Below are positions 1,563 through 19,117 of a stretch of 42,126 nt of DNA, one piece after another. A program made the translations under genes and the position numbers. The stretch's first letter is position 1; the number at the start of each line of letters is the position of its first letter. The notes under the pieces were generated by a model that saw only the letters and a list, made by a program, of their open reading frames with translations, had not been told where the DNA came from and did no database searches. Source of the stretch: Anaerolineae bacterium (lineage in GTDB: Bacteria; Chloroflexota; Anaerolineae; 4572-78; J111); assembly GCA_016931895.1 (NCBI GenBank), contig JAFGDY010000214.1:1-42126 (forward strand), written 5' to 3'.

Positions 1563-1680
1563 TTTTACCCCAAAAAACAAAACCGCCGACCCAACCAGGC
1601 CAGCGGCTAAAAATGGCTTCTGCAAAAAGCCCCCCCCGGCACCTACGGAAATGATCTTGTGAGTGTCGCGTTAGCCCAAA

Positions 1681-1753
1681 TGCTGATGGGTGGATTTGAA
1701 CCACCGACCCCGAAATTATGAGTTTCGTGCTCTAACCACTGAGCTACATCAGC
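1681..1753 (-). tRNA. tRNA-Met (anticodon CAU)
   Basis: Read on the minus strand this is a 73-nt cloverleaf. The 7-bp acceptor stem GCTGATG (1753-1747) pairs with CATCAGC (1688-1682), and the discriminator is A at 1681. The D arm contains GCTC..GAGC, the anticodon stem CGAAA/TTTCG encloses loop CTCATAA (anticodon CAU), and the T arm carries GGTTCAAATCC. CCA is not encoded. The 5' end pairs normally, unlike an initiator tRNA, so it is elongator Met. An Ile tRNA with lysidine-modified CAU cannot be fully excluded by eye. Confidence 0.95.
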
Positions 1754-1796
1754 CTATCCACGTGTAAATTTTAGTCAAAAGGCGATGTGTGTCAAA

Positions 1797-2231: not shown

Positions 2232-2338
2232 TACTTCTCTCCCAAATGAGAATGATCATCACCACTCTGCGTGGACGTTATCATCATACCTCACCTCAAA
2301 TAATATGTCAACCAAATTATGTAAACACGTAGCCGACA

Positions 2339-3676
2339 TTATAGCACCGCTGCTATTGCCTCGTGCAACAACCCAACAATTTCGTCCAATTGCTCCTCGG
2401 TAACAATAAAAGGCGGGGCAACCATCACCTGGTCGCCTTGCAGGCCGTCAATGTTGCCGCGGACGGGATAAAGGATCAGCCCCAGGTTAAAGGCGGCATC
2501 GGCTATTTTTGGGGCAACTTTGCGCTCCGCAGGGAACGGCATTTTGGTGGCGCGGTCTGCCACAAATTCCAGCCCCCACATCAAACCCTGGCCGCGAATA
2601 TCTCCCACATAGGGATGGTCGCCAAAAACGGCCCTTAATTTTTGACCTAATTTTTCTCCCTGCTGGCGAGCCGCTTCAACCAGGTTATGTTCTTGCAAAT
2701 AACGCAGCACGGCCAAGCCCACTGCCGCCCCCACCGGATGATGGGAAAAGGTGCCGCCGTGCGAAAAATCACCACGCCCGGCCCAAATAGTCTGAACATC
2801 CGCGCTCTTGACCGCCGTAATAGAGAGCGGGAAATAGCCCCCGCCAACGCCTTTGGCCATGGTAATCAGGTCTGGCTCAACACCCCAGCTTTGAATGGCA
2901 AACCACTGCCCGGTCCGGCCCAACCCGGTCATTACCTCGTCAACAATGAGCAAAAGACCATAGTGATCGCAGATTTGGCGGACGAGGGGCCAGTATTCGG
3001 CCGGAGGCACGGCTGCGACCAGACTGGCCCCGCTAATCGGCTCGGCGATGAAGGCGGCAATTGTTTCCGGGCCGTTTATTTTGATGGCGTCTTCCAAAGC
3101 GTGGGCGCAACGCAAGCCGCAAGCGGGATATTCTAAGCTAAACGGGCAACGATAACAATAGGGCGGCTCGATGTGGGGCGTTTGCCACATCATTGGTTGG
3201 TAGAGTTGGCGCAAACCGGCTCGCCCGCTCACGGCCAGCGCGCCCAGAGTGGTGCCATGATAACTGTGCCAGCGAGAGATCACCAGATAGCGGTTGGCCT
3301 GGCCGCGCTCAACCTGCACCTGCCGCACAAATTTGAGCGCCGTCTCCACAGCCTCGGAGCCGCTGCCCAAATAGAAAAAACGAGGATTTTCCAGGGGTGT
3401 CACCTTAGCCAGGGCGGCGCTGTAATCTTCAAGGGCCTGGCTGGTGAACATGGTGGCGTGAACGTAAGCCACGGCTTGAGCCTGTTCGGCCAGCGCCCGG
3501 ACAATCTCCGGCACAGCGTGGCCAACATTCACCAAAATGGGACCCCCGGAAGCGTCAAGGTAACGCTTGCCCTCAACGTCAAACAGATAGATACCTTCGC
3601 CGTGCGCTATCATTGGCCGAGGATGGGCCATGCGCCGGTAAAAAACGTGTCCGTTGAATTCTTTATATTCGGTCAT
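2339..3676 (-). CDS. class III PLP-dependent aminotransferase
   Basis: The 445-residue fold-type I aminotransferase shows the GSEAVE phosphate-binding turn (about 106-111), the WHSYHG segment (about 137-142), the PLP-nitrogen Asp in IVDEVMTGLGRTG (about residue 246) and the Schiff-base Lys in ITMAKGVGGG (about residue 275). It belongs with omega-amino acid, ornithine and 4-aminobutyrate aminotransferases. A four-Cys insert (YCYRC...CGLRC, about 183-200) is typical of one aspartate-aminotransferase-family branch of unassigned substrate. A GTG at 3677-3679 directly precedes the chosen ATG; AGAGG lies upstream. No neighbouring catabolic gene indicates the amino donor. Confidence 0.9.
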   Translation of the reverse strand: MTEYKEFNGHVFYRRMAHPRPMIAHGEGIYLFDVEGKRYLDASGGPILVNVGHAVPEIVRALAEQAQAVAYVHATMFTSQALEDYSAALAKVTPLENPRFFYLGSGSEAVETALKFVRQVQVERGQANRYLVISRWHSYHGTTLGALAVSGRAGLRQLYQPMMWQTPHIEPPYCYRCPFSLEYPACGLRCAHALEDAIKINGPETIAAFIAEPISGASLVAAVPPAEYWPLVRQICDHYGLLLIVDEVMTGLGRTGQWFAIQSWGVEPDLITMAKGVGGGYFPLSITAVKSADVQTIWAGRGDFSHGGTFSHHPVGAAVGLAVLRYLQEHNLVEAARQQGEKLGQKLRAVFGDHPYVGDIRGQGLMWGLEFVADRATKMPFPAERKVAPKIADAAFNLGLILYPVRGNIDGLQGDQVMVAPPFIVTEEQLDEIVGLLHEAIAAVL

Positions 3677-3835
3677 CACTTCTGCCTCTGGGCAAATATA
3701 TTTTGGTTATGAATATAAGCGTAGTTGATAAAATAAGCAAAAAGATTTGGCTGCGGTTTCCATAATGTCTGGTGGTCTGGTATAATGGTAAAAGAATGGG
3801 CGGGTTGGCGTGGTTGAGGAAAAATTAAAATTGAA

Positions 3836-3864
3836 TTGACGCCCATTGGTGAATGTGATACACT
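3836..3864 (+). promoter_or_regulatory. sigma70-type promoter of pgeF, probably leaderless
   Basis: TTGACG (3836-3841), a 17-bp spacer and TACACT (3859-3864) form a good -35/-10 pair. Transcription would begin around 3870-3872, two to four bases before the ATG at 3874. No Shine-Dalgarno is present, so the mRNA would be essentially leaderless. A second -10 candidate, TATAAT at 3781-3786 with a weaker -35 (TTTCCA, 18-bp spacer), could give a longer transcript. Confidence 0.5.
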
Positions 3865-3873
3865 CATTTGGTT

Positions 3874-4692
3874 ATGGCCCGGACAACATCCGATAGCGTG
3901 TATGCGGTTACGATCCAAAATCTGGGGCTGTATCGTATCCGCGCCTTCGCTGCTTATCCCCGTTTGACCCACGCTATCTTCAGCCGCAGAGGAGGGGTTA
4001 GCCAGGAGCCTTATCATTGGTTGAACCTGGGTTCGGCCGTTGGCGATGACCCCAACGCCGTGGAAAAGAATTTTCAGCAGGCCTGCGCCGCCCTTGAGGT
4101 GTTGCCTGAGCAGGCCGTTTCGTGTCACCTGGTGCATGGCGTTGATATTTTAACCGCCACTCAGAGCCGGCGGCAGCAGTTTATGGGTAAAGCCGATGGT
4201 CTGATCACAAATGAACCAGACGTTTATCTATTTATGCGTTTTGCCGACTGCACGCCGCTTATTTTTTTTGACCCGCTGGGCGGGGCGGTTGGGTTAACCC
4301 ACGCCGGTTGGCGTGGCACCATGCAAAACGCGGCCGGAGCCACGGTATCGGCTATGGTTGGCCGCCTGGGATGTCAACCGGAAAATATCATGGCCGTGAT
4401 TGGGCCGGCCATTGGCCCGTGTTGTTATGAGGTAGGCCCCGATGTGATAGCGGCGGCTGAAAAAAGTTTTTCCAACTCGGCCGGGCTGTTCATTGGCGGC
4501 AATGGAAACGTTAAATTTGACATGTGGGAAGCTAACCGGCGGCAATTGGCCGCCAGCGGGGTTAAACAGATCATTCAATCGGAAATCTGCACGGCCTGCC
4601 ATACGGCTGAATTCTTCTCGCACCGGGCTGAACAGGGTCGAACCGGGCGATTTGGGGTCGTCATTGGGCTAAGAGGAGCGGCCGGTGCCTAA
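3874..4692 (+). CDS. pgeF: peptidoglycan editing factor PgeF (YfiH/laccase-domain family)
   Basis: The 272-residue protein matches the YfiH/DUF152 family, earlier called multicopper polyphenol oxidases and now known to remove misincorporated residues from peptidoglycan precursors. Zinc/active-site residues are visible: His in SCHLVHG, Cys in ADCTPLIFFD, and His in THAGWRGT. IGPAIGPCCYEVG and CTACHTAEFFSHR are the other family blocks. I start at ATG 3874; an in-frame TTG lies two codons upstream at 3868. It leads a run with yggS, proC, yggT and yggU, and its last 8 bases overlap yggS, implying translational coupling. Confidence 0.93.
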   Translation: MARTTSDSVYAVTIQNLGLYRIRAFAAYPRLTHAIFSRRGGVSQEPYHWLNLGSAVGDDPNAVEKNFQQACAALEVLPEQAVSCHLVHGVDILTATQSRRQQFMGKADGLITNEPDVYLFMRFADCTPLIFFDPLGGAVGLTHAGWRGTMQNAAGATVSAMVGRLGCQPENIMAVIGPAIGPCCYEVGPDVIAAAEKSFSNSAGLFIGGNGNVKFDMWEANRRQLAASGVKQIIQSEICTACHTAEFFSHRAEQGRTGRFGVVIGLRGAAGA

Positions 4693-5440
4693 TATCACGG
4701 TAAACGTTGAAACGGTTTATCAACGGATTAACGCCGCGGTCAAACGAGCCGGGCGAAACCCCGCTGAGATAACGCTGGTGGCGGTCACCAAAACCCACTC
4801 CCTGGAAACGGTCATTGCCGCTTACCGGGCCGGGCTGCGCCATTTTGGCGAAAACCGGGTTCAGGAGGGGCGGACCAAAGTGATGGAAATGGCCGGATGG
4901 CTGGCGTGTAATTTGCCGGAACATGAAGCGCCAACCTGGCACCTGATCGGCCATTTGCAAAGCCGCCAGGTAGGAGCCGCGTTGGGCCAATTTAGCTTGA
5001 TGCATGCCGTGGATAGTTTGAAGCTGGCCCAACGCCTCAACCGTCTGGCCGAACGCGACGATTACCCGCCAGTGGAGATACTGCTGGAATGTAACGTTTC
5101 GGGCGAGGCCAGCAAATATGGTTTTGCCCTTGACGCCTGGACTTCGGACAGCGGGCAATTAAACACTTTCCTGGAATCCATCGCCCACATGGCTAAGCTT
5201 GACAGAGTCGTAATCCGGGGGCTGATGACCATGGCTCCCTTGGGCGACCACCCGGAGGAAACCCGTCCGGTTTTTCAAAGCCTGGCCGGCTTAAGGGCCA
5301 GGTTGCAAAAAGAAATGCCGGAAATTGCCTGGCAACATTTGTCTATGGGCATGACGGATGATTTTGAAGTGGCAATTGAAGAAGGGGCCACAATCATTAG
5401 AGTTGGTCGCGCCCTTTTTGGAGAAAGGTTAACATGCTAA
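4685..5440 (+). CDS. yggS: YggS/PLPBP family pyridoxal phosphate homeostasis protein
   Basis: This 251-residue single-domain PLP-binding protein of the alanine-racemase-fold family has the PLP Lys in LVAVTKTHS (Lys36), the HFGENRVQEG block, WHLIGHLQSRQ, and the phosphate-binding LSMGMTDDFEVAIEEG near the C-terminus. The family controls free PLP and branched-chain amino-acid balance and has no established enzymatic reaction. Translation begins at GTG 4685 within the end of pgeF, preceded by AGAGGAG. The 3' end overlaps proC by 7 bp. The yggS-proC pairing is widely conserved in bacteria. Confidence 0.95.
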   Translation: MPNITVNVETVYQRINAAVKRAGRNPAEITLVAVTKTHSLETVIAAYRAGLRHFGENRVQEGRTKVMEMAGWLACNLPEHEAPTWHLIGHLQSRQVGAALGQFSLMHAVDSLKLAQRLNRLAERDDYPPVEILLECNVSGEASKYGFALDAWTSDSGQLNTFLESIAHMAKLDRVVIRGLMTMAPLGDHPEETRPVFQSLAGLRARLQKEMPEIAWQHLSMGMTDDFEVAIEEGATIIRVGRALFGERLTC

Positions 5441-6261
5441 AAAACACCAAAATTTGTTTTATTGGGGCCGGGGCTATGGCCACCGCCATGATCGCCGGGG
5501 TAACCAAAAAAGGCTTAATTGAGCCAAAAAACATTATCGCCAGCGACCCCTACCCGGCCCAGCTTGAAAAATTGGCCCAACGTTACCAGATCAACACTAC
5601 CCAGGACAACCTGGAGGCCGTTAAGGACCAAGACATTGTGATTTTGGCAGTCAAACCGCAAAATTTAGCTGAAATTGGGCAAGAACTGCGGGGACACATC
5701 CCTTCGAAAGCACTGGTGCTATCTATCATTGCCGGCGCCAACATTGCCAAAATCAGTCAGGCCCTCCACCACTACCGGGTGGTGCGGGTGATGCCCAACA
5801 CGCCGGCGCGAGTGGGTAAAGGCATATCGGTGTGGATGGCTACAGACGAAGTCACCGAAACCCAACGACAACAATCCCAGGCCATCCTGGCCGCTTTGGG
5901 CGAAGAAATTTACGTGGATAAGGAAGATTACCTGGATATGGCCACGGCCCTCTCCGGCACCGGGCCGGCTTACGTATTTTTGTTTATGGAGGCGATGATT
6001 GACGCCGGGGTGCACATGGGGTTTTCTCGACGGGTGGCCGAACAGTTGGTTTTCCAGACCATAGAAGGTTCGGTGGCTTTTGCCCGCGATAGCGGCCGCC
6101 ACGCGGCTGAGCTGCGCAATATGGTCACCTCACCGGGCGGTACCACCGCCGACGCCCTTTACCAATTGGAAAAAGGCGCGTTTAGAACCGTTCTATCAAA
6201 AGCCATCTGGGCCGCTTACAAAAAATCTCGCTACCTGGGAGGACTGGATAACAATGGCTGA
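5434..6261 (+). CDS. proC: pyrroline-5-carboxylate reductase
   Basis: The 275-residue enzyme makes the last step of proline synthesis, reducing 1-pyrroline-5-carboxylate with NAD(P)H. The N-terminal Rossmann loop is IGAGAMATAM (about 10-19). VKPQ, RVMPNTPARVGKG, ALSGTGPAYVFLFMEA and the P5C-binding VTSPGGTTADAL follow in the standard order and spacing. AAAGG precedes the ATG at 5434, inside yggS. The stop (6259-6261) overlaps the start of yggT by 8 bp. No proA or proB lies nearby. Confidence 0.96.
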   Translation: MLKNTKICFIGAGAMATAMIAGVTKKGLIEPKNIIASDPYPAQLEKLAQRYQINTTQDNLEAVKDQDIVILAVKPQNLAEIGQELRGHIPSKALVLSIIAGANIAKISQALHHYRVVRVMPNTPARVGKGISVWMATDEVTETQRQQSQAILAALGEEIYVDKEDYLDMATALSGTGPAYVFLFMEAMIDAGVHMGFSRRVAEQLVFQTIEGSVAFARDSGRHAAELRNMVTSPGGTTADALYQLEKGAFRTVLSKAIWAAYKKSRYLGGLDNNG

Positions 6262-6523
6262 CTTTTTGGTGCTGCTGATAAACATAGTGTTTCAAGCCCT
6301 GTGGTGGGCCATTCTGATTAGAGTATTACTCTCTTGGTTGCCCATGGCCGGCGTGCGGATAGACCCCTACAACCCGGCCATCAGATTTCTTTATGCCATT
6401 ACCGACCCTATTTTAGAACCGCTACGCAAATTCACCACCATTGGCATGATTGACCTAAGCCCTTTAGTGGCTTTGATCGGGCTGGATATTTTGAGAAGGC
6501 TTTTAATTTCTCTTTTAATATGA
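6254..6523 (+). CDS. yggT: YggT family membrane protein
   Basis: An 89-residue integral membrane protein with hydrophobic segments at about 3-25 and 63-85. The conserved stretch LLSWLPMAG...YNPAIRFLYAITDPILEPLR is diagnostic of YggT (PF02325). Homologues (CCB3 in chloroplasts, YlmG in Gram-positives) act in membrane organisation near the division site or in cofactor attachment; the exact role here is unknown. The reading frame is open further upstream inside proC, but ATG 6254 with AGGACTGG before it fits the family length. It overlaps proC by 8 bp. Confidence 0.9.
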   Translation: MADFLVLLINIVFQALWWAILIRVLLSWLPMAGVRIDPYNPAIRFLYAITDPILEPLRKFTTIGMIDLSPLVALIGLDILRRLLISLLI

Positions 6524-6552
6524 ACCAACTCTACGTAATTTGAGGTAGCAAG

Positions 6553-6573
6553 GCGTATTGCGTATTGCGTAAA
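6553..6573. repeat. short heptad tandem repeat (GCGTATT)
   Basis: Two exact copies of GCGTATT (6553-6566) and a degenerate third (GCGTAAA) lie in the gap between yggT and the DUF167 gene. The following bases (CGGCATACG...) partly mirror the unit. No other feature is visible in the gap. Confidence 0.6.
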
Positions 6574-6652
6574 CGGCATACGAAATATGGCATATCTATT
6601 CAAATGGAGTATTACAGGGCCAATTCCATAAAGCAGACTAGGAGAATGGACC

Positions 6653-6952
6653 ATGCGAGAAATCCAATTTAAGATCACCAAAGCCGAAGAAGGCGCGGCC
6701 TTTGCCGTGCACGTAGTGCCTAAATCAATGAAAAACGAAGTGGTGGGCAAACATGGCGACGCCCTCAAAATCCGGTTGAAGGCCAACTCTGCCAGCGGCA
6801 TTGCCAATAGTACGCTGATCAACTTTTTGGCCGACAAGCTCAAAGTTGACCGCAAAGACGTTGAGGTGGCCGCCGGCCAAACTTCAACCGAAAAAATGGT
6901 TATTGTGGTGGGCCTCACCCCGGTTGAGGTGGAAGCGCGCTTGTTGGGTTGA
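6653..6952 (+). CDS. yggU: DUF167/YggU family protein
   Basis: A 99-residue protein matching DUF167 (PF02594). FAVHVVPKSMKNEVVG near the N-terminus and KIRLKANSASGIANSTLINFLAD in the middle are the conserved strand and helix. The function is not established; the fold is a small alpha/beta domain. AGGAGA lies about 10 bases before the ATG. It follows yggT by 129 bp, completing the conserved yggS-proC-yggT-yggU order, which supports common ancestry of the cluster more than a shared pathway. Confidence 0.9.
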   Translation: MREIQFKITKAEEGAAFAVHVVPKSMKNEVVGKHGDALKIRLKANSASGIANSTLINFLADKLKVDRKDVEVAAGQTSTEKMVIVVGLTPVEVEARLLG

Positions 6953-7027
6953 ACAGGGTAATGGGGAACCTTTACGCCCCAACCAACGTCTTATCCGGTA
7001 AGACAAACAGGTTGGAGGTGGTTTTTG

Positions 7028-7528
7028 ATGCGATATTTAAACAACAAAATTTGTTTTTTAATGATTATGATTTGGGTGGCTATGGCCGTTGGGGGATGTG
7101 GTTCCCGGGCCGGCCAAGATATTCCGGCGGAAACAACCATCGAAGCGCAGGCGGCCCCGACGGCTACACCTCAACCCAGCCCCACGCTGCTCAAAGAGAT
7201 GATCGAGCCTATTTCCCCCGTTTCTCCCTTATCGCCGGTTCCCCCCGCGATGGCCTTTGAAAAAGTTGAACCCATTAAAGGCAGCGAAACTGCCCTGGCT
7301 GCGGCAATAGACCACCTGGCCCAACACGCCGGCGTTCCCCCCGCCAAAATCACCCTAGTTTCAATGGAAGAAAGGCAGTGGAGCGACGCCAGCCTGGGCT
7401 GTCCCCAGGAAGGGTTTATGTATGCCCAGGTGATTACCCCCGGCTACCTGATAGTGCTGGAAACCCAGGGCCGGCAGTATGAATACCATACAGACACTAC
7501 CGACAACGTAGTTCTGTGTGAAGAGTAA
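7028..7528 (+). CDS. small secreted lipoprotein, unknown function
   Basis: The 166-residue protein has a lipoprotein signal ending in AVGGC (Cys24), a Thr/Pro-rich linker (about 35-65), and a C-terminal domain of about 85 residues. That domain holds EERQWSDASLGCPQEG, YAQVITPGYLIVLE and YHTDTTDNVVLCEE, with two Cys that could pair across it. I know similar 'W-DASLGCP...' domains as recurring in Chloroflexi and actinobacterial exported proteins, but no function is assigned. GGAGGTGG at 7014-7021 favours ATG 7028 over the adjacent TTG at 7025. It may be cotranscribed with the DUF167 gene (75-bp gap). Confidence 0.75.
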   Translation: MRYLNNKICFLMIMIWVAMAVGGCGSRAGQDIPAETTIEAQAAPTATPQPSPTLLKEMIEPISPVSPLSPVPPAMAFEKVEPIKGSETALAAAIDHLAQHAGVPPAKITLVSMEERQWSDASLGCPQEGFMYAQVITPGYLIVLETQGRQYEYHTDTTDNVVLCEE

Positions 7529-7731
7529 CCGGATCTTCTTTCAAGTTGACCATTGGCGATGCGGATAGCCGGATAAACCCTTGTGAATCCAAATTCTTCA
7601 ATGGCCAATTGCTTTGACCACCGGCTAATTTGCGCACAAACCAGTTTCATGGTTTCATGTCCTCATACAGGATAAAATATAATTTATTCCCCAAACCTTT
7701 AAAATTCTATAACGTAAGGAGATAATTTACT

Positions 7732-8853
7732 ATGGGTAAAGTGCGGGTGGCTATTATTGGCGTGGGAAACTGCGCTTGCGCTCTGGTGCAAGGGGTACAA
7801 TATTACCGCAACGCCGCAGCGGATGAATTTGTGCCGGGCTTAATGCACGTTAACCTGGGGGGTTATCATGTAGGTGATATTGAGTTTACAGCCGGTTTTG
7901 ACGTAGACGCCAACAAAGTGGGAAAAGACCTTGCGGAAGCCATTTGGGTGGAGCCAAATAATACCATAAAATTCTCCGATGTGCCTCAACTGGGCGTGCC
8001 GGTATACCGGGGGATGACCCACGATGGAATCGGCAAATATTTGGCCCAAAGAATAAAAAAGGCCGGCGGCCCAACCGACGACGTGGTAGGCATTCTCAAA
8101 GACACCAAAACCGACGTGGTGATCAGCTTTTTGCCCGTTGGCTCAGAAATGGCTACCAAATGGTACGTTGAACAGATATTAGACGCCGGCTGCGCCTTTG
8201 TTAACTGCGTGCCGGTTTTTATTGCCCGCGAGGGCTACTGGCAACGCCGCTTTGAAGAGAAAAATCTGCCCGTTATCGGCGACGACATCAAAAGCCAGGT
8301 GGGAGCCACCATCACCCATCGGGTGCTCACCCGCCTGTTCCGGGAACGAGGCGTAAGGCTTGATCACACCTACCAGCTCAACTTTGGCGGCAATATGGAC
8401 TTTTTCAACATGCTGGAACGAGAACGGCTGGAATCTAAAAAAATATCCAAAACCAACGCCGTAACCAGCCAGTTGGATTATGAAATGCCCGCCGATGATG
8501 TGCATGTGGGGCCGTCGGATTATGTGCCGTGGTTGACCGACCGGAAGTTTTGCTACATCCAGATGGAGGGGACCACCTTTGGCGACGTGCCGCTGAAGGC
8601 GGAAGTCAAATTAGAAGTTTGGGACAGCCCTAATTCGGCAGGAGTGACCATTGACGCCGTGCGCTGCGCCAAGCTGGCCCTGGATAGAGGCATCTCCGGC
8701 GCGGTAATGGCTCCATCGGCCTACTTTATGAAGTCGCCGCCGGTGCAATACCACGACGACGAAGCCCGCGAACGTACCGAAGCCTTTATTGCCGGCCGGG
8801 AATTCACCCCCCGTTTTGAGCAGCCGCCTAAAACCAACGTTCCCCAAAAATAA
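7732..8853 (+). CDS. ino1: inositol-3-phosphate synthase (myo-inositol-1-phosphate synthase)
   Basis: The 373-residue NAD-dependent isomerase converts glucose 6-phosphate to inositol phosphate, the entry to inositol lipids and compatible solutes. The NAD loop is [13 protein letters not shown] (about 9-21). Other blocks include [10 protein letters not shown], the [11 protein letters not shown] catalytic segment, [12 protein letters not shown] and [15 protein letters not shown]. The length matches the shorter actinobacterial/archaeal form, not the eukaryotic form of 500 or more residues. AAGGAG lies 11 bases before the ATG and a TATAAT sits at 7678-7683. A strong terminator separates it from transketolase. 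Confidence 0.93.
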
Positions 8854-8879
8854 GCCGCGTGACCCTTTTAAAACACTTT

Positions 8880-8914
8880 AGACCTTTAGGGTTTTGCTGA
8901 CCCTAAAGGTCTTT
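8880..8914 (+). terminator. rho-independent terminator after inositol-phosphate synthase
   Basis: Arms 8880-8892 and 8900-8912 form a 13-bp perfect stem with a 7-base loop, followed by TT then A. It lies 27 bp after the ino1 stop. The transketolase ribosome-binding site (AAAGGAG, 8921-8927) begins within 10 bases of the stem, so this structure could also attenuate or hide tkt translation. Confidence 0.8.
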
Positions 8915-8934
8915 ATCAGCAAAAGGAGTAAAGA

Positions 8935-10947
8935 ATGCCCCAGACAGAACTCGAACAACTTTGTGTTAACACTCTTCGTACCCTGGCCATTGACGGCGTG
9001 CAAAAAGCCAATTCCGGCCATCCCGGCATGCCAATGGGCGCAGCCGATATGGCTTACGTGCTCTGGAGTCAATTTTTACAGCATAATCCCAAAAATCCTG
9101 ATTGGTTCAACCGGGACCGGTTTGTGCTGTCGGCCGGGCACGGCTCAATGCTGCTATACGCCCTGCTGCACCTGACCGGCTACGACTTGCCCCTGGCCGA
9201 ACTAAAGCAATTTCGCCAATGGAACAGCAAAACGCCCGGCCACCCTGAATATGGCCTCACCCCTGGCGTGGAAACTACTACCGGCCCGTTAGGCCAGGGT
9301 TTTGCCAACGGCGTGGGCATGGCCATTGCCGAGGCGTTTTTAGCCGAAACCTTCAACCGCCCCGGCCATAAAATTATTGACCATTATATTTATGCCATTG
9401 TCAGCGATGGCGACTTGATGGAAGGCGTGTCTCATGAAGCGGCTTCCCTGGCCGGTCACCTGAAATTGGGCAAAATAATTTACCTGTACGACGACAACCA
9501 CATTTCCATTGACGGCCGCACCGATTTATCCTTTACCGAAGACCGGCTGAAACGGTTTGAGGCTTACCATTGGCATACCCAGCAGATTGACGGCCATGAC
9601 CGGGCGGCTGTAGCCCAGGCCATTAAAGCGGCCCAGGCAGTTGCCGATAAACCTTCGATCATCGCCTGCCGCACCACCATTGGCTACGGCAGCCCCAACA
9701 AGGCCAATACCGCCGGGGTGCATGGCGCTCCCCTGGGCGCGGACGAGGTCCGGCAGACCAAAGAAGCCTACGGGTGGGACCCCGATAAAACATTCTACAT
9801 TCCCGATGAAGCCCTGGCCCAATTCCGCCAGGCGGTGGACCAGGGAGCCAAACGGCAAGCGGAATGGGAAGCCAAGCTGGCCGCATACGCCAAAGCCTAT
9901 CCCACCGAATTTGAGCAGTTCCGCCGCGCCATTTCCGGCGAACTGCCCGAAAATTGGGAAAAGGCGTTGCCCGTTTTTGCCGCCGGTGAAAGTGTGGCCA
10001 CTCGCAAGGCTTCGGGCCAAACGCTTAACGCCATTGCCCCGGTCATCCCCAACCTCATCGGCGGCTCGGCAGACCTGGCCCCCAGCAATAACACTTATTT
10101 GAAAGATTATCCCGTTTTTGGCAACGACACTTTTGCCGGTCGTAACTTTCACTTTGGCGTGCGCGAACATGGTATGGGCTCCATTCTCAACGGGATGGCT
10201 TTGCACGGCGGGGTGATCCCCTACGGCGGCACGTTTTTGGTTTTTGCCGATTATTGCCGCCCGGCTATTCGCCTGGCCGCGTTATCCCACATCCCTTCTA
10301 TCTTTGTATTTACCCACGACAGCATTGGGCTGGGCGAAGACGGCCCCACCCACCAGCCGGTCGAACAAATAGCCTCGCTCCGGGCCATTCCCAACCTGCT
10401 CGTCATCCGGCCCGCCGATGCCAACGAAACCATCCATGCCTGGAAAGTGGCCCTGGAAAAACGAGATGGGCCGGTGGCTTTGCTCCTGACCCGCCAGAGC
10501 TTGCCCGTTTTCGACCGTTCTAAAATGGGCGACGCCGCCAACCTGGCCAAAGGAGCCTACGTGCTGCTGGACACCGACAAAGTGTACCCGGACGTTATCC
10601 TGATTGGCGACGGCTCAGAAGTACAACTGGCCGTGGAAGCCTACCATAAACTGGCCGAGCAGGGCATTGGGGCGCGGGTAGTGAGCATGCCTTGTTGGGA
10701 ATTGTTCAAGCAACAAGCGGAGGAGTACCAAAACTCGGTGCTACCCGCTTCGGTTAAAGCCAGGGTGGGGATAGAAGCCGGGGTGACCATGGGCTGGGGA
10801 CAGTGGGTTGGGCCGCAAGGGATAGTGATTGGGCTGAATCGTTTTGGCGCTTCGGCCCCATACAAAACCCTTTACCAGCAGTGGGGCTTTACCACGGAAA
10901 ACGTGGTGTTGCGCGCCCTGGAGGCTATTGACAAATCTAAACGGTAG
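8935..10947 (+). CDS. tkt: transketolase
   Basis: The 670-residue thiamine-diphosphate enzyme moves two-carbon units between sugar phosphates in the pentose-phosphate and Calvin-type pathways. The standard sequence blocks are in order: [15 protein letters not shown] (about 27-41), [14 protein letters not shown], the ThDP/Mg motif [13 protein letters not shown] (about 157-169), [19 protein letters not shown] in the pyrimidine domain and [19 protein letters not shown]. Full-length, with no missing domain. AAAGGAG precedes the ATG. RpiA starts 5 bp after the stop, so they form an operon. Confidence 0.96.
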
Positions 10948-10951
10948 CAAA

Positions 10952-11641
10952 ATGTCGCCTGTAGAACAGTTCAAAAAACAAGCCGCTGAAAAGGCAGTTG
11001 AGCGAGTCAGAGATGGCATGGTGCTGGGGCTGGGCACCGGCACCAGCACCAAATACGCCATCATCAAAATTGGGCAATTGTGGCAGGCGGGAGCCTTAAC
11101 CGACATCGTGGGCATCCCCACCTCGCAAGAAACCGAGGCCCTGGCCAAAGAGTACGACATTCCCTTAACCACCCTTGACAAGCAGCCGGTGATTGACTTG
11201 GCCATTGACGGGGCCGATGAGATTGACCCTAACCTTGACCTGATCAAAGGTTTGGGCGGCGCGCTGGTTCGGGAAAAAATCATTGAGATCGCCGCCAAAT
11301 CTTTGATTATTGTGGCGGATAGCCGCAAGCAGGTCAAAAAGTTAGGCACACGCAGCCCGTTACCCGTGGAAGTGCTCCAATTTGCCTGGAAAGCTCAGGC
11401 TGGCTGGCTGGCCAGCCTGGGTTGCACGGCTGTTTTACGCGGCAGCGAAAAGAACCCTTACGTCACCAATAATCACCACTACATTCTTGATTGCACGTTT
11501 CCCCACGGCCTGGATAACCCCGCTGAATTGGACGTGATGCTCAACAACCGGCCCGGGCTGGTAGGCCATGGCCTCTTTTTGAACATGGCCACCGAAGCCA
11601 TTATTGCCGGGGAGGATGGCATCCGGGTGATCAGAAAATAA
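10952..11641 (+). CDS. rpiA: ribose-5-phosphate isomerase A
   Basis: The 229-residue enzyme interconverts ribose 5-phosphate and ribulose 5-phosphate. The family blocks are present: LGLGTGTSTKYAI (about 25-37), DLAIDGADEIDP (about 83-94), LGGALVREK with the catalytic Glu/Lys region, and IIVADSRKQVKKLG. Translation starts at ATG 10952, 5 bp after the tkt stop; the frame extends back into tkt but that part is a shadow. Pairing with transketolase in one operon fits the non-oxidative pentose-phosphate branch. Confidence 0.95.
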   Translation: MSPVEQFKKQAAEKAVERVRDGMVLGLGTGTSTKYAIIKIGQLWQAGALTDIVGIPTSQETEALAKEYDIPLTTLDKQPVIDLAIDGADEIDPNLDLIKGLGGALVREKIIEIAAKSLIIVADSRKQVKKLGTRSPLPVEVLQFAWKAQAGWLASLGCTAVLRGSEKNPYVTNNHHYILDCTFPHGLDNPAELDVMLNNRPGLVGHGLFLNMATEAIIAGEDGIRVIRK

Positions 11642-11656
11642 TAGAAGGATGAGACC

Positions 11657-12883
11657 ATGCCTGAATCACCCTACCCCATGATCCCCCTCGAGGAAGCGCT
11701 GGCCATCATTCAGCGCGAAATACAGACTTTGCCGGCCATAACCATGCCTTTTCATAAGGCTTTGGGTTTAGTTTTAGCCGAAGATATTTTTGCCGATGAG
11801 CCGATGCCGCCCTTTGCGGCAGCCGGCATGGACGGTTTTGCCGTTGTTGCAGCCGACGGCCCCGGACCGCGCCGGATTGTGGGCGATCAAACCGCCGGCT
11901 ACGTGGCCGATGTGCACGTTGAACCGGGTGCTGCCGCCCGCGTCACTACCGGCGCGCCCGTTCCGCCCGGCGCAGACGCGGTGGTGATGGTTGAGCAAAC
12001 CGAGGAGAAAGAGGGCCAGATTGATATTCTGCCCGGCGACATTCAAGCAGGGGCCAACATCCGGCCGGTGGGTGAAGACATTGAAGCCGGACAGTTGGTG
12101 TTAGCCAAAGGCGCGGTTTTAGGCCCGCCGGAGTTGGGACTGTTGGGCACGGTGGGTAAAACCCAAATCTCTGTCCACCGCCGGCCAGTGGTGGCCGTTA
12201 TGTCTACCGGCAACGAAATTGTGGAGCCTCACCAAAATCCCCAACCCGGCCAGATTCGAGACGCCAATCGGTTTACCTTGATAGGCGCGGTTGAACAGGC
12301 CGGGGCAGAAGCGCTTGATTTGGGCATTGTGGAGGACCAGACGCAGCACTTGCAAGAAACAATCGAGCGCGGCCTGGCCGCAGCCAATGTCCTGATCACT
12401 TCTGGTGGGGTTTCGATGGGCCAGCTTGACCTGGTGAAACCCTACCTGGCCGCGCGGGGAACCCTTCACTTTGGCCGGGTCAGAACCAAACCGGGCAAGC
12501 CGGTCACGTTTGCCACCGTTGAGGGTAAGCCCTGTTTTGCCCTGCCCGGCTTTCCGGCCAGCGCCCTGGTCAGTTTTGAAATTTTTGTCCGGCCCGCCCT
12601 GCTGAAAATGGCCGGCCATCCCCAACTTTACCGTCCCCGCGAAAAGGCAATCCTGGCCCACGCCATAAAACACGATGCCAGTCGCACCGAGTTTCAGCGG
12701 GTCGCGCTTGCGCGCCAACCCCATGGCGCGCTCATCGCCGCCACCACCGGCTTCCAGGGTTCAGGCCGTTTATTGTCAATGGTGGGGGCCAACGGGTTGA
12801 TTGTGTTGCCACACGGCCAGGGAGATTTTGCCGCCGGGGCCGTGGTGGAGGCCGTGATTCTGGGGCCGGTTGAGATGGAGTAG
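11657..12883 (+). CDS. moeA: molybdopterin molybdenumtransferase MoeA
   Basis: The 408-residue protein inserts molybdate into adenylylated molybdopterin. Blocks in order: PPFAAAGMDGFAV (about 53-65), TGAPVPPGADAVV, the MPT-binding-domain STGNEI...GQIRDANRF, LITSGGVSMGQLDLVKPYL, and PGKPVTFATVEGKPCFALPGFPASALVSFEI. The C-terminal domain IV is complete. AGAAGGATGAG precedes the ATG, 15 bp after rpiA, so it appears to ride in the tkt-rpiA transcript. No other molybdenum-cofactor gene or molybdoenzyme is visible in the window, so the linkage looks incidental. Confidence 0.95.
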   Translation: MPESPYPMIPLEEALAIIQREIQTLPAITMPFHKALGLVLAEDIFADEPMPPFAAAGMDGFAVVAADGPGPRRIVGDQTAGYVADVHVEPGAAARVTTGAPVPPGADAVVMVEQTEEKEGQIDILPGDIQAGANIRPVGEDIEAGQLVLAKGAVLGPPELGLLGTVGKTQISVHRRPVVAVMSTGNEIVEPHQNPQPGQIRDANRFTLIGAVEQAGAEALDLGIVEDQTQHLQETIERGLAAANVLITSGGVSMGQLDLVKPYLAARGTLHFGRVRTKPGKPVTFATVEGKPCFALPGFPASALVSFEIFVRPALLKMAGHPQLYRPREKAILAHAIKHDASRTEFQRVALARQPHGALIAATTGFQGSGRLLSMVGANGLIVLPHGQGDFAAGAVVEAVILGPVEME

Positions 12884-12890
12884 GCATAAG

Positions 12891-12919
12891 TTGCCAAATT
12901 CAGCACAATGTGTCACAAT
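12891..12919 (+). promoter_or_regulatory. candidate promoter of the LPETG/PKD surface gene
   Basis: TTGCCA (12891-12896), a 17-bp spacer and CACAAT (12914-12919) could drive the surface-protein pair from the 65-bp gap after moeA. The match is moderate (4 of 6 at the -10 element), and read-through from moeA is equally possible. Confidence 0.3.
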
Positions 12920-12948
12920 GTAACCGTACATTCTATTTTGGAGGGAGA

Positions 12949-14226
12949 ATGTTTATGCTGCCTTTCAAACTACATTCTCTGGCAAGGATTGGGCTTGTTG
13001 TAAGTTTTGGTTTGGCCCTGATTTTGGGTTCAGGTTTATTATACGTTGCTGCCGCCCCTCCGTCGCAATTTCCCATTAATTCGGTCACCCTTATCAGCGA
13101 CCCTCCCCCCCCCGATCCCAATTTCCCCGGCCAATTTGTCGAGCGAACCATCCTACAGAACAATCTGCTTGACCCTGGCGGAACCACGCAATGGCGTTTC
13201 CCTACCTTTGATGACAGTAGTTGGCTAAACTCTTACCCGGTGGTGAGACTTCCGGCCTGGGGAGACCCGCTGGGCAACCCTGCTTCCCCGGCCGATTTCA
13301 TCTGGGGCGGCTCACCCGGAGTTGGCCCCGATGCCAACGGCCGTTATCAGATTCCCAATACGCCTAACCCACGCCAATATCTTTTTTTGCGCAAAAATTT
13401 TTGTATTCCCATCAACGCCAGCCTTAATTCAGTTGCGGTAGTCAACCCGTTGCGCCTGCAAGTAGCTGCTTCACCCGGCAATGCTTCTGTTTACTATAAT
13501 GGCACTGCTTTGGTAACGGGCTTGCCCGGCGATGAAACAGGAGCTTTTTATAACCTGAACCTGTTGCCCGGTCTGGTCAACTCGGTGCGGCGCATTGGCC
13601 GCAATACCCTGGCCATGCGGGTGCGGGATGATTTGGCCGACACCAGCGCCGGGGTAGCCTATCAACTGCAATTCAACTATAATATTGACCCTGCCGCCCT
13701 GACCATAAATAGCAATCCCCCCAGTCCTACCACCGCCAACACCGCCATCACTTTTAGCCAGAATAACAACGGTTTGAGCGGGGATGGCCCCTTTACCTTT
13801 GAATGGAACTTTGGCGATGGCACCACCAGCACCGCAGCCGCGCCGGTAAAAGCCTATGCGACACCCGGCACCTATACCGTTGTCCTCACCATGACCGACC
13901 GTTTTGGCTGCCCTTCGGCCCCGGTTTCTTTAATTTATGAGGTGCAGCCCCAACCCACCGCCACGCCTACCAATACCCCTATAGCTCCCCCACCCTCTTC
14001 TGACGATGATGATGACGATGTATTGCCAACCCCAACCGCCACAGCCACGCCAACGCCAACTCCAACCGCCACGCCTGCCGGCCCGGTATATCTACCTGAA
14101 ACCGGCTTATTAGCCGAGCCTGCCTCCCCGCACTCGTCTCCCTTGGTGTTTACGGTAGGGATTATCAGCCTGGCTTTATTAGGCGCAGGTTACCTGGCGC
14201 GACGTTGGCTCAAAAGCGGTGATTGA
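12949..14226 (+). CDS. exported PKD-domain protein with LPETG cell-wall anchor
   Basis: The 425-residue protein starts with a signal peptide (hydrophobic core about 12-35). An N-terminal beta-rich region contains a jellyroll-like stretch (FLRKNFCIP...VYYNGTALVTG), followed by a PKD domain around residues 245-330 with the hallmark FEWNFGDGT and YATPGTYTVVLTMTD. After it come a run of six Asp, a Thr/Pro stalk, the sortase motif LPETG (about 382-386), a hydrophobic helix and an Arg/Lys tail. This is a complete sortase substrate. GGAGGG precedes two possible ATGs (12949 and 12955); the second has better spacing. The next gene starts 12 bp downstream. Confidence 0.85.
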   Translation: MFMLPFKLHSLARIGLVVSFGLALILGSGLLYVAAAPPSQFPINSVTLISDPPPPDPNFPGQFVERTILQNNLLDPGGTTQWRFPTFDDSSWLNSYPVVRLPAWGDPLGNPASPADFIWGGSPGVGPDANGRYQIPNTPNPRQYLFLRKNFCIPINASLNSVAVVNPLRLQVAASPGNASVYYNGTALVTGLPGDETGAFYNLNLLPGLVNSVRRIGRNTLAMRVRDDLADTSAGVAYQLQFNYNIDPAALTINSNPPSPTTANTAITFSQNNNGLSGDGPFTFEWNFGDGTTSTAAAPVKAYATPGTYTVVLTMTDRFGCPSAPVSLIYEVQPQPTATPTNTPIAPPPSSDDDDDDVLPTPTATATPTPTPTATPAGPVYLPETGLLAEPASPHSSPLVFTVGIISLALLGAGYLARRWLKSGD

Positions 14227-14238
14227 GGAGTGTATCAG

Positions 14239-15459
14239 ATGAAAAAAGTCTTTCTATCCAGCTTGACCCTGACCACCCTGGTCCTCTTTGGCCTGGTTGC
14301 CTTTATCGTTATCGCCCGTCCTGGCCTGGGGCAGAGTAATAACCTGGCCGCCGTGGCCGATGTCTCCCAACCTGTGGTGGCCGTCTCATTTGATTTTGAC
14401 CCCCAACTGGTTGACTACCAGGTTTCTCAACCTGACTACGCCTGGATTGACCTTAGCGACAGCAGCGATGAACAAATCAAACCGGCCGACTTTGAAGATA
14501 ACGTGGGGTCAGCCGCCATTGACCTTGGTTTTTATTTCCCCTTCTTTGACCATGTTTATCGGCAAGTGCGGGTGAGCGACAACGGCTATCTCTATTTTGG
14601 CGGCGAACAGACCGACGGCGGTTCCACCCCCCAGGCCGTGCCTTCTCAAGAGGACCTTATTCATAATCTCATTGCGCCGTTAGGCGCAGACCTGTTCCGT
14701 AACCCGGCCGACTCGGTGGTTTATATTGCCCGGCAAACAGAGCCGGACCGCCGGTTGGTGGTTCAGTTTGAAAACGCTTATTGGTGCTGCAACCTGGAAG
14801 CGGCCAATAATTTTCAGGTTATACTGTATCCCGACGGCCGGATTCTGACGCAATACCAATCCGTGCAAAGTCAAGACCCGGCCCACGCTTACGTTACGGT
14901 TGGTCTGGAAAATGAGGACGGCTCGCGGGGGCAAAGTTTTTACACCGGCCTGTTAAACAAAACCGATGTTTTTAAGAGTGAATTAGCCGTGTTGTACAAC
15001 CCCGGCGACACCGTATTGGGCCGGTTGCTTTTTATGCCTGAAACCGGCCATGCCCAGGCCGCGCCGGGACAAAGCGCCACTTTCAACACAGACTTGCTTA
15101 ACCTGAGTGGGGTTGACAGTACCTTCACCATTACCCACACCCTACAAGTCAACGGCGTTGACGTTCCCCTGCATCCTGTGGCCGCAGAGGAAAGTCAAGA
15201 GGCAGATGCACCGGATGAGTCTACCGGGCCGGAAGGAACGGCTGAACCACCGGCAACCTGGGGCATAAAAACCCTAACTGAACCCGGTCAGGTTAACCAT
15301 ACCGAGGCCGGGCCGCTGGCGGTTGAGATCATCATTCCTCAAACTGCGCAAGCGGGCGACGTAGCCGTGATCACCTTCCGCGCTCTGCCCGACGCCATAA
15401 CCGAGTTAGAAGCAGTAGCCACCTTCACCATCGAGGTAACGTCCGCCAACCCGGAATAA
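14239..15459 (+). CDS. secreted protein with WCC-containing beta module, no anchor
   Basis: The 406-residue protein has a signal peptide (about 1-32) and no C-terminal membrane segment, so it should be released or held by another protein. Residues about 85-260 carry a module (GFYFPFFDHVYRQVRVSDNGY, IAPLGADLF, VVQFENAYWCCNLE, FQVILYPDGRI, VTVGLENEDGS) that recurs in the gene at 15866. It resembles the nidogen-like 'FYG-xY-VSSNGYLxF' beta domains of secreted bacterial proteins. The rest is an acidic linker and a beta-rich tail. GAGGAG (14225-14230) supports ATG 14239 over the GTG at 14230. Cotranscribed with the LPETG gene. Confidence 0.8.
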   Translation: MKKVFLSSLTLTTLVLFGLVAFIVIARPGLGQSNNLAAVADVSQPVVAVSFDFDPQLVDYQVSQPDYAWIDLSDSSDEQIKPADFEDNVGSAAIDLGFYFPFFDHVYRQVRVSDNGYLYFGGEQTDGGSTPQAVPSQEDLIHNLIAPLGADLFRNPADSVVYIARQTEPDRRLVVQFENAYWCCNLEAANNFQVILYPDGRILTQYQSVQSQDPAHAYVTVGLENEDGSRGQSFYTGLLNKTDVFKSELAVLYNPGDTVLGRLLFMPETGHAQAAPGQSATFNTDLLNLSGVDSTFTITHTLQVNGVDVPLHPVAAEESQEADAPDESTGPEGTAEPPATWGIKTLTEPGQVNHTEAGPLAVEIIIPQTAQAGDVAVITFRALPDAITELEAVATFTIEVTSANPE

Positions 15460-15461
15460 AG

Positions 15462-15555
15462 CATGTCATTTCGAGGCCATAGGCCGAGAAATCCCCGGAA
15501 TCTAGCTCAAAAACATTACGCCGTAGGGATTTCTCGCTACGCTCGAAATGACATG
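15462..15555. repeat. nested inverted-repeat element (GTCATTTCGAG type)
   Basis: Left arm 15462-15475 (CATGTCATTTCGAG) is complementary to 15542-15555, and GAGAAATCCC inside the left arm matches GGGATTTCTC at 15526-15535. The whole forms a roughly 94-bp imperfect hairpin. The GTCATTTCGAG...GAGAAAT vocabulary is that of a dispersed intergenic repeat seen in many bacteria. A small stem AGCCT/AGGCT followed by TTTT (15557-15574) comes next and may terminate the upstream gene. Confidence 0.75.
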
Positions 15556-15599
15556 GAGCCTACGTCAGGCTTTTCAGACAGGCTCTAAAAATTCTCTAT

Positions 15600-15865
15600 T
15601 AGGCAACATTTTTCGGGCCAAGTCCCGGACAAGGCGCAGAACCTTAAAAGTAAAAAGCTTGCCCCAAAAGCTGAATTTTTGAGATTTTACTCTCTGCCCA
15701 AGCTTAAAATTTTCTATTCTCTGGGCCAACCCCGAAACCTTTTTTGCCAGTTCTGGACTCCTATTTTTAGAACTAAAACGATTGACGATGATTTGCTGAT
15801 TTACTAATTTGCGGGCAACCTTTGCTTGCCTTTGTCCATTTACTATTACCAAAGGAGGGAATCCT
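15600..15865 (+). other. long untranslated leader before the DUF11 gene, possibly structured
   Basis: About 265 bases without a gene precede the strong ribosome-binding site AAAGGAGGGA (15851-15860). A two-level stem is visible: AGTAAAA (15649-15655) pairs with TTTTACT (15685-15691) around AGCTT/AAGCT (15656-15660 and 15668-15672). I match it to no riboswitch class I know. A minus-strand frame here has no protein character. Confidence 0.35.
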
Positions 15866-18800
15866 ATGAACCGCAGCCTTAAAGTTATCATCGCCGTTAT
15901 CGGCGCCTTTATCCTGTTGAGCCTGGCCCTGGCCAGCATTATTTCTTTGACCCCCACCGAAGTGGCCGCCGCCCCACCGGCTGCCCCTCCTGCCCGGCCA
16001 GCCAATCCAGGCAGCAGCGTATACACCCTCTACGACAACCTGTGGATACCCAGTGAAGACCCGCCGGCCCACTACGAGTGGGTTGAAATCAACAACAGCG
16101 CCGATTATGCCTGGGATTTGGGCGACCCTGATGAAGAAAACAACGTCTCTCCCAATTTTCCCATTGGTTTTATCTTCCCTTTTTACAATGATTTTTACAC
16201 CCAATTTCGGGTGAGCGAAAAAGGCTTTATCTTTTTTGAGCACCCAAATGTAGATGTTGGCCCCGGCACTGCGTTACCTGATATAATTGCCGATCAAACT
16301 CCTGGTGGTATTCCCAATGATACGGATAACTTCATTGCCCCCTTCGCCGGCGACCTATTTGGTTATCCCGGCATTTCTCGCGTTTATATCAGAAACGACA
16401 CCAGCCCCCGGCGCGCCATCATCGAGTTCGAGAATGTAGTCTGGTGTTGCGGGCCGTACAACCCCCGCACGTTTCAAATTATTCTTTATCCCAGCGGCGA
16501 TATTGACGTGCAATATCGCAAAATCACCAATTTTTCCGGCAACCTGGACGACGGGCAAACCGTGCGGCTGGGGCTGGAAAACCTGGAAGGTACAGAGGGT
16601 GATGTTTATAACCAGGGTCTCTTTAACGATATTGATGCCGCCGTGCCGGCCTATTTACAAGACAGCCTGGACGTTTATTACAACGCCGAATTCACCGCTC
16701 CCCACGTCATCTTTTGGCCGGATAGCGAGCGCATCTGGGACGACCCCGGCCATCCCATCAATGTCTCGGCCAATCTCTACCTGGCCGCCCCCGAAACCGT
16801 CACCCGCAGTTTCAACATCATGACCAGTTCGTTGGTCGTCAGCTCGATTCTGCCCGCAAGTACTTGGGCCGACAACATCACCCATACCACCTTTGTGCCG
16901 GTGTTCAGCGGCACGTATAGCGCCACCGTGCAATTTGTGCTGACGGTCCCCGTTGGCGCCAACTTTTGGGACGTAGCCACCGCCACCTTTGTGGCTGAAT
17001 CTGTTGAATCTCCACCCACTACAGATACCTTTACCGTTGTCTACGGTCCCGCCCACCGCGATCTGCAAATCCAAAAAGACCTCAACCCTAATATCTGGCC
17101 AGCCAGCGGCGGCGCCTTCCGCTACCGCCTGATCATTACCAACACCGATTACAACAACAGCGACCGGGCCGCCATCGCCCGCAGCGTGGTGGTGACAGAC
17201 CTGCTCCAGACGGGTGTGGCTTACGAAGATTGTCGCAGGCAACCCTACTATCAAAGCTGCGGCGGTGCAGCAGCCACCAGCACCGTGGCCGGAGGAACAG
17301 TTTTTACCTTGACCGTTGGCGATATGAATATTGATGAAACCCGAACCATCTACCTGGAATTGCGGGATAACGGGGCCTTTCGACCAATCAATAATACCGC
17401 CCACATCACCTTGACGGATGGGATTGAATTGGGTGACGGCCCCAATAACCATGACAGCAGCGCCCCCATCAACGCAGCCGACCCACAGCAGGATTTACAT
17501 ATTGAAAAACATTATTGGTACAATAACGATTACGTGGCCGCCGGCCAGTCAATTCCGTTTGACATTGACCTGTACAATGATGGCTCAACCGGCCATTCAG
17601 GCAATGTGCCGGTTGATAATGTGGTAGTAGTGGACGTGCTGCCGGAAGACACAACCTTTGACCGGGCAGAATTATACTACGAGGGACCGGCGCTGAGTCC
17701 GGAAGGGTCAATAGCGCCCACCATCAGCGGGCCAATGAGCAGAACATTGACCTTCACCGTTCCGAAGGTAGACAACGGCTACTGGAATGAGCTACACCTG
17801 ATCGTGTGGATCAGTATTCCCCCCACCATCCCGGTTGGCACGTACTTGACCAACACGGCAACCGTTCAAAATGGCCCCTCGGCCACAGAAACCGTGATCA
17901 TAGGCAGCAATTACATTGACCCCTTTGTGGATAAAGGGCCAACCCCGGACTATGATGGCAATATTGTTCAGCCGGAACCGGGCAAAAGTTACACCTACTG
18001 GATCACGTACGGCAATCGCAGCGTGCTCACCCAAGCCACCAACTTCATCATCTCCGATACCCTGCCCGCTTCCGTCACCCTGGTCAGCGCCTCGCCGGGC
18101 GATTATTTGACCGGGCCGTTTATCAGCGCCGTTTCCGGGCAAACGGTCATCAGTTGGTATACCTCTACTTTGCCCGCCGGGGCCATGGGGGAAGTCATGA
18201 TCATGGTTGACCTTGACAGCGACGTGCCCCCCGGCACCGAATTGGCCAATACCATCGTCGCCACTTACACCGGCACTTTTACCCCCTCCACCACCGACGA
18301 TGACACGGACGTTTTCACTATTGAAGTAGCTTCCGACTTTAACGGCTCCCAGAAATTGGTGAACAATCCCACCCCTTCCGCCGGCAGCGAGGTTGAATAT
18401 ACCATTTTGATCAGCAATACGGGGGCGGCTACTACTTATACGGTTATTGACACGCTGCCGCCAGAGTTGACCTATGTTTCCAGTAGTGACCCACAACCGG
18501 CCACGACACCGCCACCGGGTACAGCCGGGGGCAATATTACCTGGGCCGGTTCTATCAATGAAAACAGTCAGGTAGAACTCAAATTTAGGGCCAGGATAAC
18601 AGAAACGGCTGTAACGGGAGACGTTATCTCCAATACGGCCAATATTGCCACTGCCGGAGGAGTCAAAATCAATCGCCGGGTTGACGTGACCGTGGCCGGG
18701 GGCGTTTTTGCCAACTCCAGCAAAACGGTCACTCCCAACCCCGTGGCCAGGGGCGGCCAGGTGGAGTATACCCTTACCATTTCCAACAGCGGCAGCGCTG

Positions 18801-19117
18801 CTGGCGCCATTACCGTCACCGACTCCCTGCCGCCCTCGGTGACGCTGCCCAGCGCCTTTAACCCCAGCGCCGGCAGTGTGACCCCTCCCGGCGGCGGCAG
18901 CCGGGTCTTTACCTGGACGGCCACCGTGGGAGCTAACCGCAGCGAAACCCTGAGGTTTGAGGTGACGGTGTCCACGGCCGTAACCAATGGAGATAGGATT
19001 GAGAACGTGGCCTGGCTGGAGACCGGCGGAGTTTCGGTTTCCATCCCGCTGAGATCCACCCTGCTCATCCAGGAGGTATCCGGCGGGATATACCTGCCTA
19101 TCATCGTCAAGCAGTAG
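15866..19117 (+). CDS. large secreted DUF11-repeat protein ending in YLPIIVKQ
   Basis: The 1083-residue exported protein has a signal peptide (about 1-30). A WCC-containing module (about 75-270) is paralogous to the preceding gene (GFIFPFYNDFYTQFRVSEKGF, IAPFAGDLF, IIEFENVVWCCG). A beta-sandwich region follows, then five DUF11-type repeats starting near residues 400, 545, 686, 825 and 951; the last two are canonical (VEYTLTISNSG...VTDSLPPSV). DUF11 domains are Ig-like stalk units, sometimes isopeptide-crosslinked. It ends with GGIYLPIIVKQ and has no LPxTG or membrane helix. ATG 15866 is set by AAAGGAGGGA; an upstream in-frame start at 15809 would displace the signal peptide. Confidence 0.85.
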   Translation: MNRSLKVIIAVIGAFILLSLALASIISLTPTEVAAAPPAAPPARPANPGSSVYTLYDNLWIPSEDPPAHYEWVEINNSADYAWDLGDPDEENNVSPNFPIGFIFPFYNDFYTQFRVSEKGFIFFEHPNVDVGPGTALPDIIADQTPGGIPNDTDNFIAPFAGDLFGYPGISRVYIRNDTSPRRAIIEFENVVWCCGPYNPRTFQIILYPSGDIDVQYRKITNFSGNLDDGQTVRLGLENLEGTEGDVYNQGLFNDIDAAVPAYLQDSLDVYYNAEFTAPHVIFWPDSERIWDDPGHPINVSANLYLAAPETVTRSFNIMTSSLVVSSILPASTWADNITHTTFVPVFSGTYSATVQFVLTVPVGANFWDVATATFVAESVESPPTTDTFTVVYGPAHRDLQIQKDLNPNIWPASGGAFRYRLIITNTDYNNSDRAAIARSVVVTDLLQTGVAYEDCRRQPYYQSCGGAAATSTVAGGTVFTLTVGDMNIDETRTIYLELRDNGAFRPINNTAHITLTDGIELGDGPNNHDSSAPINAADPQQDLHIEKHYWYNNDYVAAGQSIPFDIDLYNDGSTGHSGNVPVDNVVVVDVLPEDTTFDRAELYYEGPALSPEGSIAPTISGPMSRTLTFTVPKVDNGYWNELHLIVWISIPPTIPVGTYLTNTATVQNGPSATETVIIGSNYIDPFVDKGPTPDYDGNIVQPEPGKSYTYWITYGNRSVLTQATNFIISDTLPASVTLVSASPGDYLTGPFISAVSGQTVISWYTSTLPAGAMGEVMIMVDLDSDVPPGTELANTIVATYTGTFTPSTTDDDTDVFTIEVASDFNGSQKLVNNPTPSAGSEVEYTILISNTGAATTYTVIDTLPPELTYVSSSDPQPATTPPPGTAGGNITWAGSINENSQVELKFRARITETAVTGDVISNTANIATAGGVKINRRVDVTVAGGVFANSSKTVTPNPVARGGQVEYTLTISNSGSAAGAITVTDSLPPSVTLPSAFNPSAGSVTPPGGGSRVFTWTATVGANRSETLRFEVTVSTAVTNGDRIENVAWLETGGVSVSIPLRSTLLIQEVSGGIYLPIIVKQ

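Follow-up and report, generated by a model that had tools for sequence, protein, structure and literature searches.

DUF11 is treated in the literature as an adhesin stalk domain. In Litorilinea aerophila, a species of Chloroflexota, arrays of DUF11 assemble into grappling-hook filaments (PMC13319060); its protein GhlA carries 49 DUF11 domains and lacks a signal peptide. Other points of comparison are the NIDO domain (PF06119; Pfam gathering cut-off, 25 bits) and the gliding adhesins RemA and RemZ of Flavobacterium johnsoniae (sequence in PDB 8GL6), which are exported by the type 9 system via a C-terminal domain. Disulfides between adjacent cysteines have been described at a sugar-binding site, in the arabinofuranosidase 1wd4, where the bond touches the bound arabinofuranose; and at a mechanical site, in the A2 domain of von Willebrand factor, where a role as a latch has been proposed and is itself debated.

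We compared these systems with three adjacent genes, here named B, A and D, of an Anaerolineae contig. They lie in a window (the whole stretch of DNA that was analysed) of 42,126 nucleotides and have the following features:

12910..14226 (+): gene B, exported; N-terminal domain, PKD domain, Thr/Pro/Asp-rich linker and sortase-type tail
14092..14106 (+): LPETG sorting motif of B; a hydrophobic stretch and the basic tail ARRWLKSGD come next, as read from the translation
14239..15459 (+): gene A; signal peptide, NIDO-like module and one further domain, no anchor seen
14398..15039 (+): NIDO-like module, copy A, placed by its homology to D and a NIDO score of 16.9 bits
14782..14790 (+): WCC motif of copy A, residues 185-187 counted from the GTG at 14230
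15462..15555 (.): inverted repeat with 14-base perfect arms, in the intergenic space that separates A from D
15866..19117 (+): gene D; signal peptide, N-terminal NIDO-like module, DUF11 stalk and C-terminal YLPIIVKQ
16040..16720 (+): NIDO-like module, copy D, placed by alignment with A and by a class-wide profile search
16442..16450 (+): WCC motif of copy D, Trp193-Cys194-Cys195
19091..19117 (+): C-terminal YLPIIVKQ and stop of D, a tail that recurs in this genome

The reading frames of A and D are both open, on a single contig. The best start of A is the ATG at 14239 (the mechanical ORF start is the GTG at 14230), and D starts at the ATG at 15866, preceded by AAAGGAGGG. This start lies 406 bases downstream of the end of A, and the inverted repeat (arms CATGTCATTTCGAG...CTCGAAATGACATG) is found in between. 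By BLASTP, A and D share 33% identity over 242 residues (124 bits, E=2e-34). The module common to both measures about 180 residues and contains, in the same order in the two translations, the blocks GFYFPF/GFIFPF, RVSDNGY/RVSEKGF, IAPLGADLF/IAPFAGDLF, FENAYWCC/FENVVWCC, VILYPDG/IILYPSG, and GLENEDG/GLENLEG (A/D). A sequence-only reading of this DNA had proposed such a homologous module with six ordered blocks in two exported proteins, one free and the other on a DUF11 stalk. All six blocks were recovered, both proteins have signal peptides, and the domain scan placed the stalk on D, with A as the free copy. The first block, proposed as F-[YF]-FPF, exists in both copies but reads F-I-FPF in D, and is hence F-[YI]-FPF. 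The further domain of A (about 15028-15456) had no Pfam match.

A genome-wide search found A and D as the only two close copies of the module. A recent duplication within the genome is not supported, as A is 44-45% identical to its relatives L009 and L010 from elsewhere, versus 35-36% to D. The four sequences form one clade (support 98/97), within which the tree leaves the branching order open; by sequence, we class A as a free module of the same clade as D, L009 and L010. Two remote copies were also observed in this genome (L004 on contig C178 and L005 on contig C265), both lacking CC and forming the extracellular part of membrane histidine-kinase-like proteins.

The profile search suggested by the sequence-only reading, with a profile built from copies A and D, traced the family to 109 of the 396 genomes of the class. 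The module is thus not peculiar to these genes but a variant of a large NIDO-like family: 28 of the 31 aligned modules matched Pfam NIDO with E values no higher than 1, the best being 9.8e-12, and the relatives L018, L031, L033 and L034 scored 35-46 bits, above the cut-off. Copy A scored 14.1-16.9 bits, below that value, and copy D was not listed; single-sequence Pfam and NCBIfam scans of the module gave almost no matches. We therefore file the A/D module as NIDO-like by sequence, not as a NIDO member. It shares with NIDO the opening third of the profile (GF.F.FYG..Y....V.SNG..F); however, copy A covers only positions 3-57 of the 186, and the CC hairpin falls outside the matched part.

A profile of the 31 modules also matched the PDB sequence 8gl6_D, annotated as RemA (E=1.6e-17), a match that indicates kinship, not structure; a sequence search of the PDB with the module found no resolved structure. 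Residues 45-191 of this protein align over most of the module, but its hairpin reads YFYNGNNG, without CC, and the C-terminal domain used for type 9 export was not found in A or D, in which no Pfam or NCBIfam model of such a sorting domain matched.

Elsewhere, relatives of the module were observed in varied settings. In other Chloroflexota classes (L204-L222), it follows subtilase-like or carboxypeptidase-like sequences, according to N-terminal parts read by eye, and one subtilase-like copy (L206) reads FCC at the same hairpin. On viral contigs we found one distant relative only, a NIDO-like module (17 bits against NIDO) in a 351-residue protein (L172:1920-2975, contig IMGVR_UViG_3300030333_008666). 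Judged from sequence, the module is widespread, extracellular and nidogen-like, with an accessory or binding role. Adhesion is not its only possible role, since it is also found as the outer part of sensor kinases and as an accessory domain of proteases.

The stalk of D scored 122.6 bits against DUF11 (cut-off, 24.6) in five stretches, which gives D the stalk that forms part of the definition of a fibrillar adhesin. Like GhlA, D is a Chloroflexota surface protein with DUF11 domains arranged as beads on a string; unlike GhlA, it has about five of them, begins with a signal peptide, and carries a NIDO-like module at the N-terminal end. D also contains an isopeptide-forming domain (TIGR04226, 51.3 bits), which makes mechanical load on the stalk plausible.

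The C-terminus of D drew attention to a motif, YLP[LIV][IV]x[KR], located a few residues ahead of the stop in D, L009, L010, L046, L048, L049, and L090. As a DNA pattern it had 34 matches in the genome, versus 0 for the reversed control; 22 of the 30 matches read fall within 10 codons of a stop, and it occurs in 17 of 388 ORF tails of the collected loci, versus 0.07 expected. No NCBIfam or Pfam model matched the tail of D. This motif is possibly an unnamed sorting tag of exported Chloroflexota proteins.

Gene B begins with a signal-peptide-like sequence and contains a PKD domain (PKD_4, E=2.7e-16). With its LPETG motif, hydrophobic stretch and basic tail, and with sortases encoded in the genome, it has the features of a sortase substrate; the five sortase genes all lie outside the window, in which none was found. 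The N-terminal domain of B (13051-13698) had no Pfam match. It was found again only in L010 and, in part, at the end of a contig in G354, and in none of the 399 further genomes sampled across the phylum. Only 12 bases separate the stop of B from the ATG of A, so that cotranscription of B and A is likely, as far as the sequence can indicate.

Adjacent B-, anchor- and D-type genes were observed again in L010, from Chloroflexi bacterium SpSt-1153, where three consecutive genes with overlapping ends were identified:

1385-4729: B-like gene, 35% identical to B (E=1e-44)
4675-5133: small Pro/Thr-rich protein ending in LPESG and a membrane stretch
5130-11792: D-like WCC-DUF11 gene

B resembles the first two of these genes joined, which supports a joint function. 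D is the full-length counterpart of the L009 and L010 proteins, given 31-34% identity over 840-920 residues, stalk included. This synteny was found in L010 only, plus the incomplete contig in G354; the cluster is patchy, since the genus mate G221 had no module at the threshold used. Insertion of the cluster at an otherwise conserved site found no support, as the left and right flanking genes lie apart from one another in the relatives checked. Signal peptides, adjacency in L010, the LPETG anchor and the five sortases together support the earlier proposal that these genes are parts of a surface assembly, in that they form a surface cluster.

With respect to the cysteine pair, the translation of A contains two cysteines, which are the CC pair, and that of D contains the pair and two distant cysteines in the stalk. 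Among 144 aligned modules, CC occupied the WCC hairpin columns in 21, neither position was cysteine in 123, and a single cysteine was never observed; in 16 of the 21, the pair was the only cysteines of the module. A well-described family in which the pair is not conserved would count against the sequence-only reading. This is in part what we found, as CC is conserved in a subset of modules and not family-wide, but it is either complete or missing and appears repeatedly across divergent branches. Since most members lack it, the pair must be dispensable for the fold or basic function of the module. CC at any position was found in 24 of 129 collected modules, versus a shuffled mean of 1.06 (maximum, 5), a count inflated by shared descent, seven of the copies being a tandem array in the protein L047; its recurrence at the hairpin is far above chance.

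The joint presence or absence of both cysteines is as predicted for a bonded pair, and a vicinal disulfide appears, from the sequences, to be the likeliest state of CC. VKOR, which drives the formation of disulfides outside the cytoplasm, is among the enzymes that this genome encodes. Bonds between chains, e.g. from A to D, or binding of a metal or cofactor would also account for a module in which, in either copy, no other cysteine is available, and A and D are neighbours that could pair. However, one protein (L047) has seven CC modules in tandem in a single chain, single-copy CC proteins exist, and no histidine column accompanies the pair across modules. We consider these partnerships improbable.

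The evolutionary history of the pair was followed on a tree built without the motif columns. The CC state changed 9 times in total, versus 18.8 after shuffling; the label is thus clustered, and part of its count reflects shared descent, as would be expected if the pair were a neutral, functionless trait of a few related modules. At least five of the changes, however, are forced by supported branches, and half pairs are absent from all 144 modules. In addition, L127, L138, L149, and L053 carry CC at another loop, and here too the module has no further cysteine. Neutrality is thus a very improbable account of the pair. In the sister modules L045 (CC) and L050 (none), from one genus, both cysteines differ at once.

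Structure prediction gave models of low confidence, with an AlphaFold mean pLDDT of 48 for A (four-row alignment) and 56 for the module (five rows; 55.6). In the module model, CC is placed in a hairpin turn between strands 120-130 and 133-144, with a sulphur geometry that is untrustworthy at this confidence. The best fold matches of this model reached a VIA-align Z of 5.6 and a Foldseek E of 0.084; the top rows include large beta-sandwich domains of glycosidases and indicate no clear fold. No NIDO entry was present among the Foldseek and VIA-align matches, an absence that carries no weight.

The position predicted for CC, between two strands, is also what would be expected if the bond did no more than pin the hairpin turn, replacing an aromatic-small turn for stability against heat or proteases, without ligand contact. 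This is the main rival to a role in ligand binding, although we regard it as rather unlikely. At these columns, modules without CC mostly combine an aromatic residue with a following Gly, Ser, Ala or Asn (YG, FG, WA, YS, FS, YN), and the 123 modules lacking the pair are compatible with such a substitution. The residue ahead of CC, by contrast, was W in 6 and H in 6 of the 21 modules (D in 3, G in 2, F in 2, also R or E), and a bias towards W or H in 12 of 21 would be needless for a pure turn. This bias is a weak point against the turn-pinning role, because half of it comes from one tandem array and close kin.

The location of the D module at the end of a potentially load-bearing stalk raises another role for a bonded pair, i.e. 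a redox- or force-sensitive latch, with the hairpin opened by pulling on the stalk or by reduction, for which the von Willebrand factor A2 proposal offers a precedent. If bonded here, the pair would resemble that of A2 in joining adjacent cysteines at a mechanical site, but the proteins are unrelated and the bond is, in our case, a prediction. Furthermore, the A2 pair sits at the end of its domain, whereas CC lies in an internal hairpin, and copy A has no stalk yet keeps the pair. We give the latch a small chance of being correct.

We prefer, at slightly below an even chance, the reading in which the locus encodes a surface adhesion apparatus. In this reading, D would be a fibrillar adhesin, and a vicinal-disulfide hairpin at its tip would serve as a rigid platform for the ligand. 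B would be a surface protein anchored by sortase and a partner of the fibre; D would display a NIDO-like binding tip at the N-terminal end of its DUF11 stalk; and A would be a free, secreted copy of the tip with one extra domain. The CC pair, in the hairpin turn that precedes the FQVILYP strand, would be oxidised to a vicinal disulfide; in most relatives an aromatic and then a small residue occupy this position. Beside the Trp, the bond would create a rigid hydrophobic edge in contact with the ligand, for which a glycan or some other polymer of the surface is the likeliest candidate. Two points favour the platform: disulfides between adjacent cysteines are known to contact sugars, and the pair stands in place of an aromatic residue, in many cases next to W or H. 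A bonded pair would be similar to that of 1wd4 in joining adjacent cysteines at a sugar-binding site, although that protein is unrelated and the bond is here a presumed one. For the family as a whole, we tentatively propose, at a probability well short of even, that the vicinal-disulfide hairpin is an interchangeable element of NIDO-like surface modules in Chloroflexota. It would have been acquired or dropped as a whole several times, even in more than one loop of a shared fold, and might tune ligand binding or the mechanical strength of fibres on the surface.

The family, the stalk and the anchor are of known kinds, and the recurrent twin-cysteine hairpin is the part for which no published description was found in the open-access literature, which is weak evidence of absence. 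Surface proteins of Chloroflexota have been little tested so far. The B-A-D cluster unites at one locus a sortase anchor and two tips, one free and one stalked, and the all-or-none twin-cysteine loop provides a cheap and concrete handle on how surface modules work. Should the bond be confirmed, a widespread bacterial module would prove to contain a rare type of bond.
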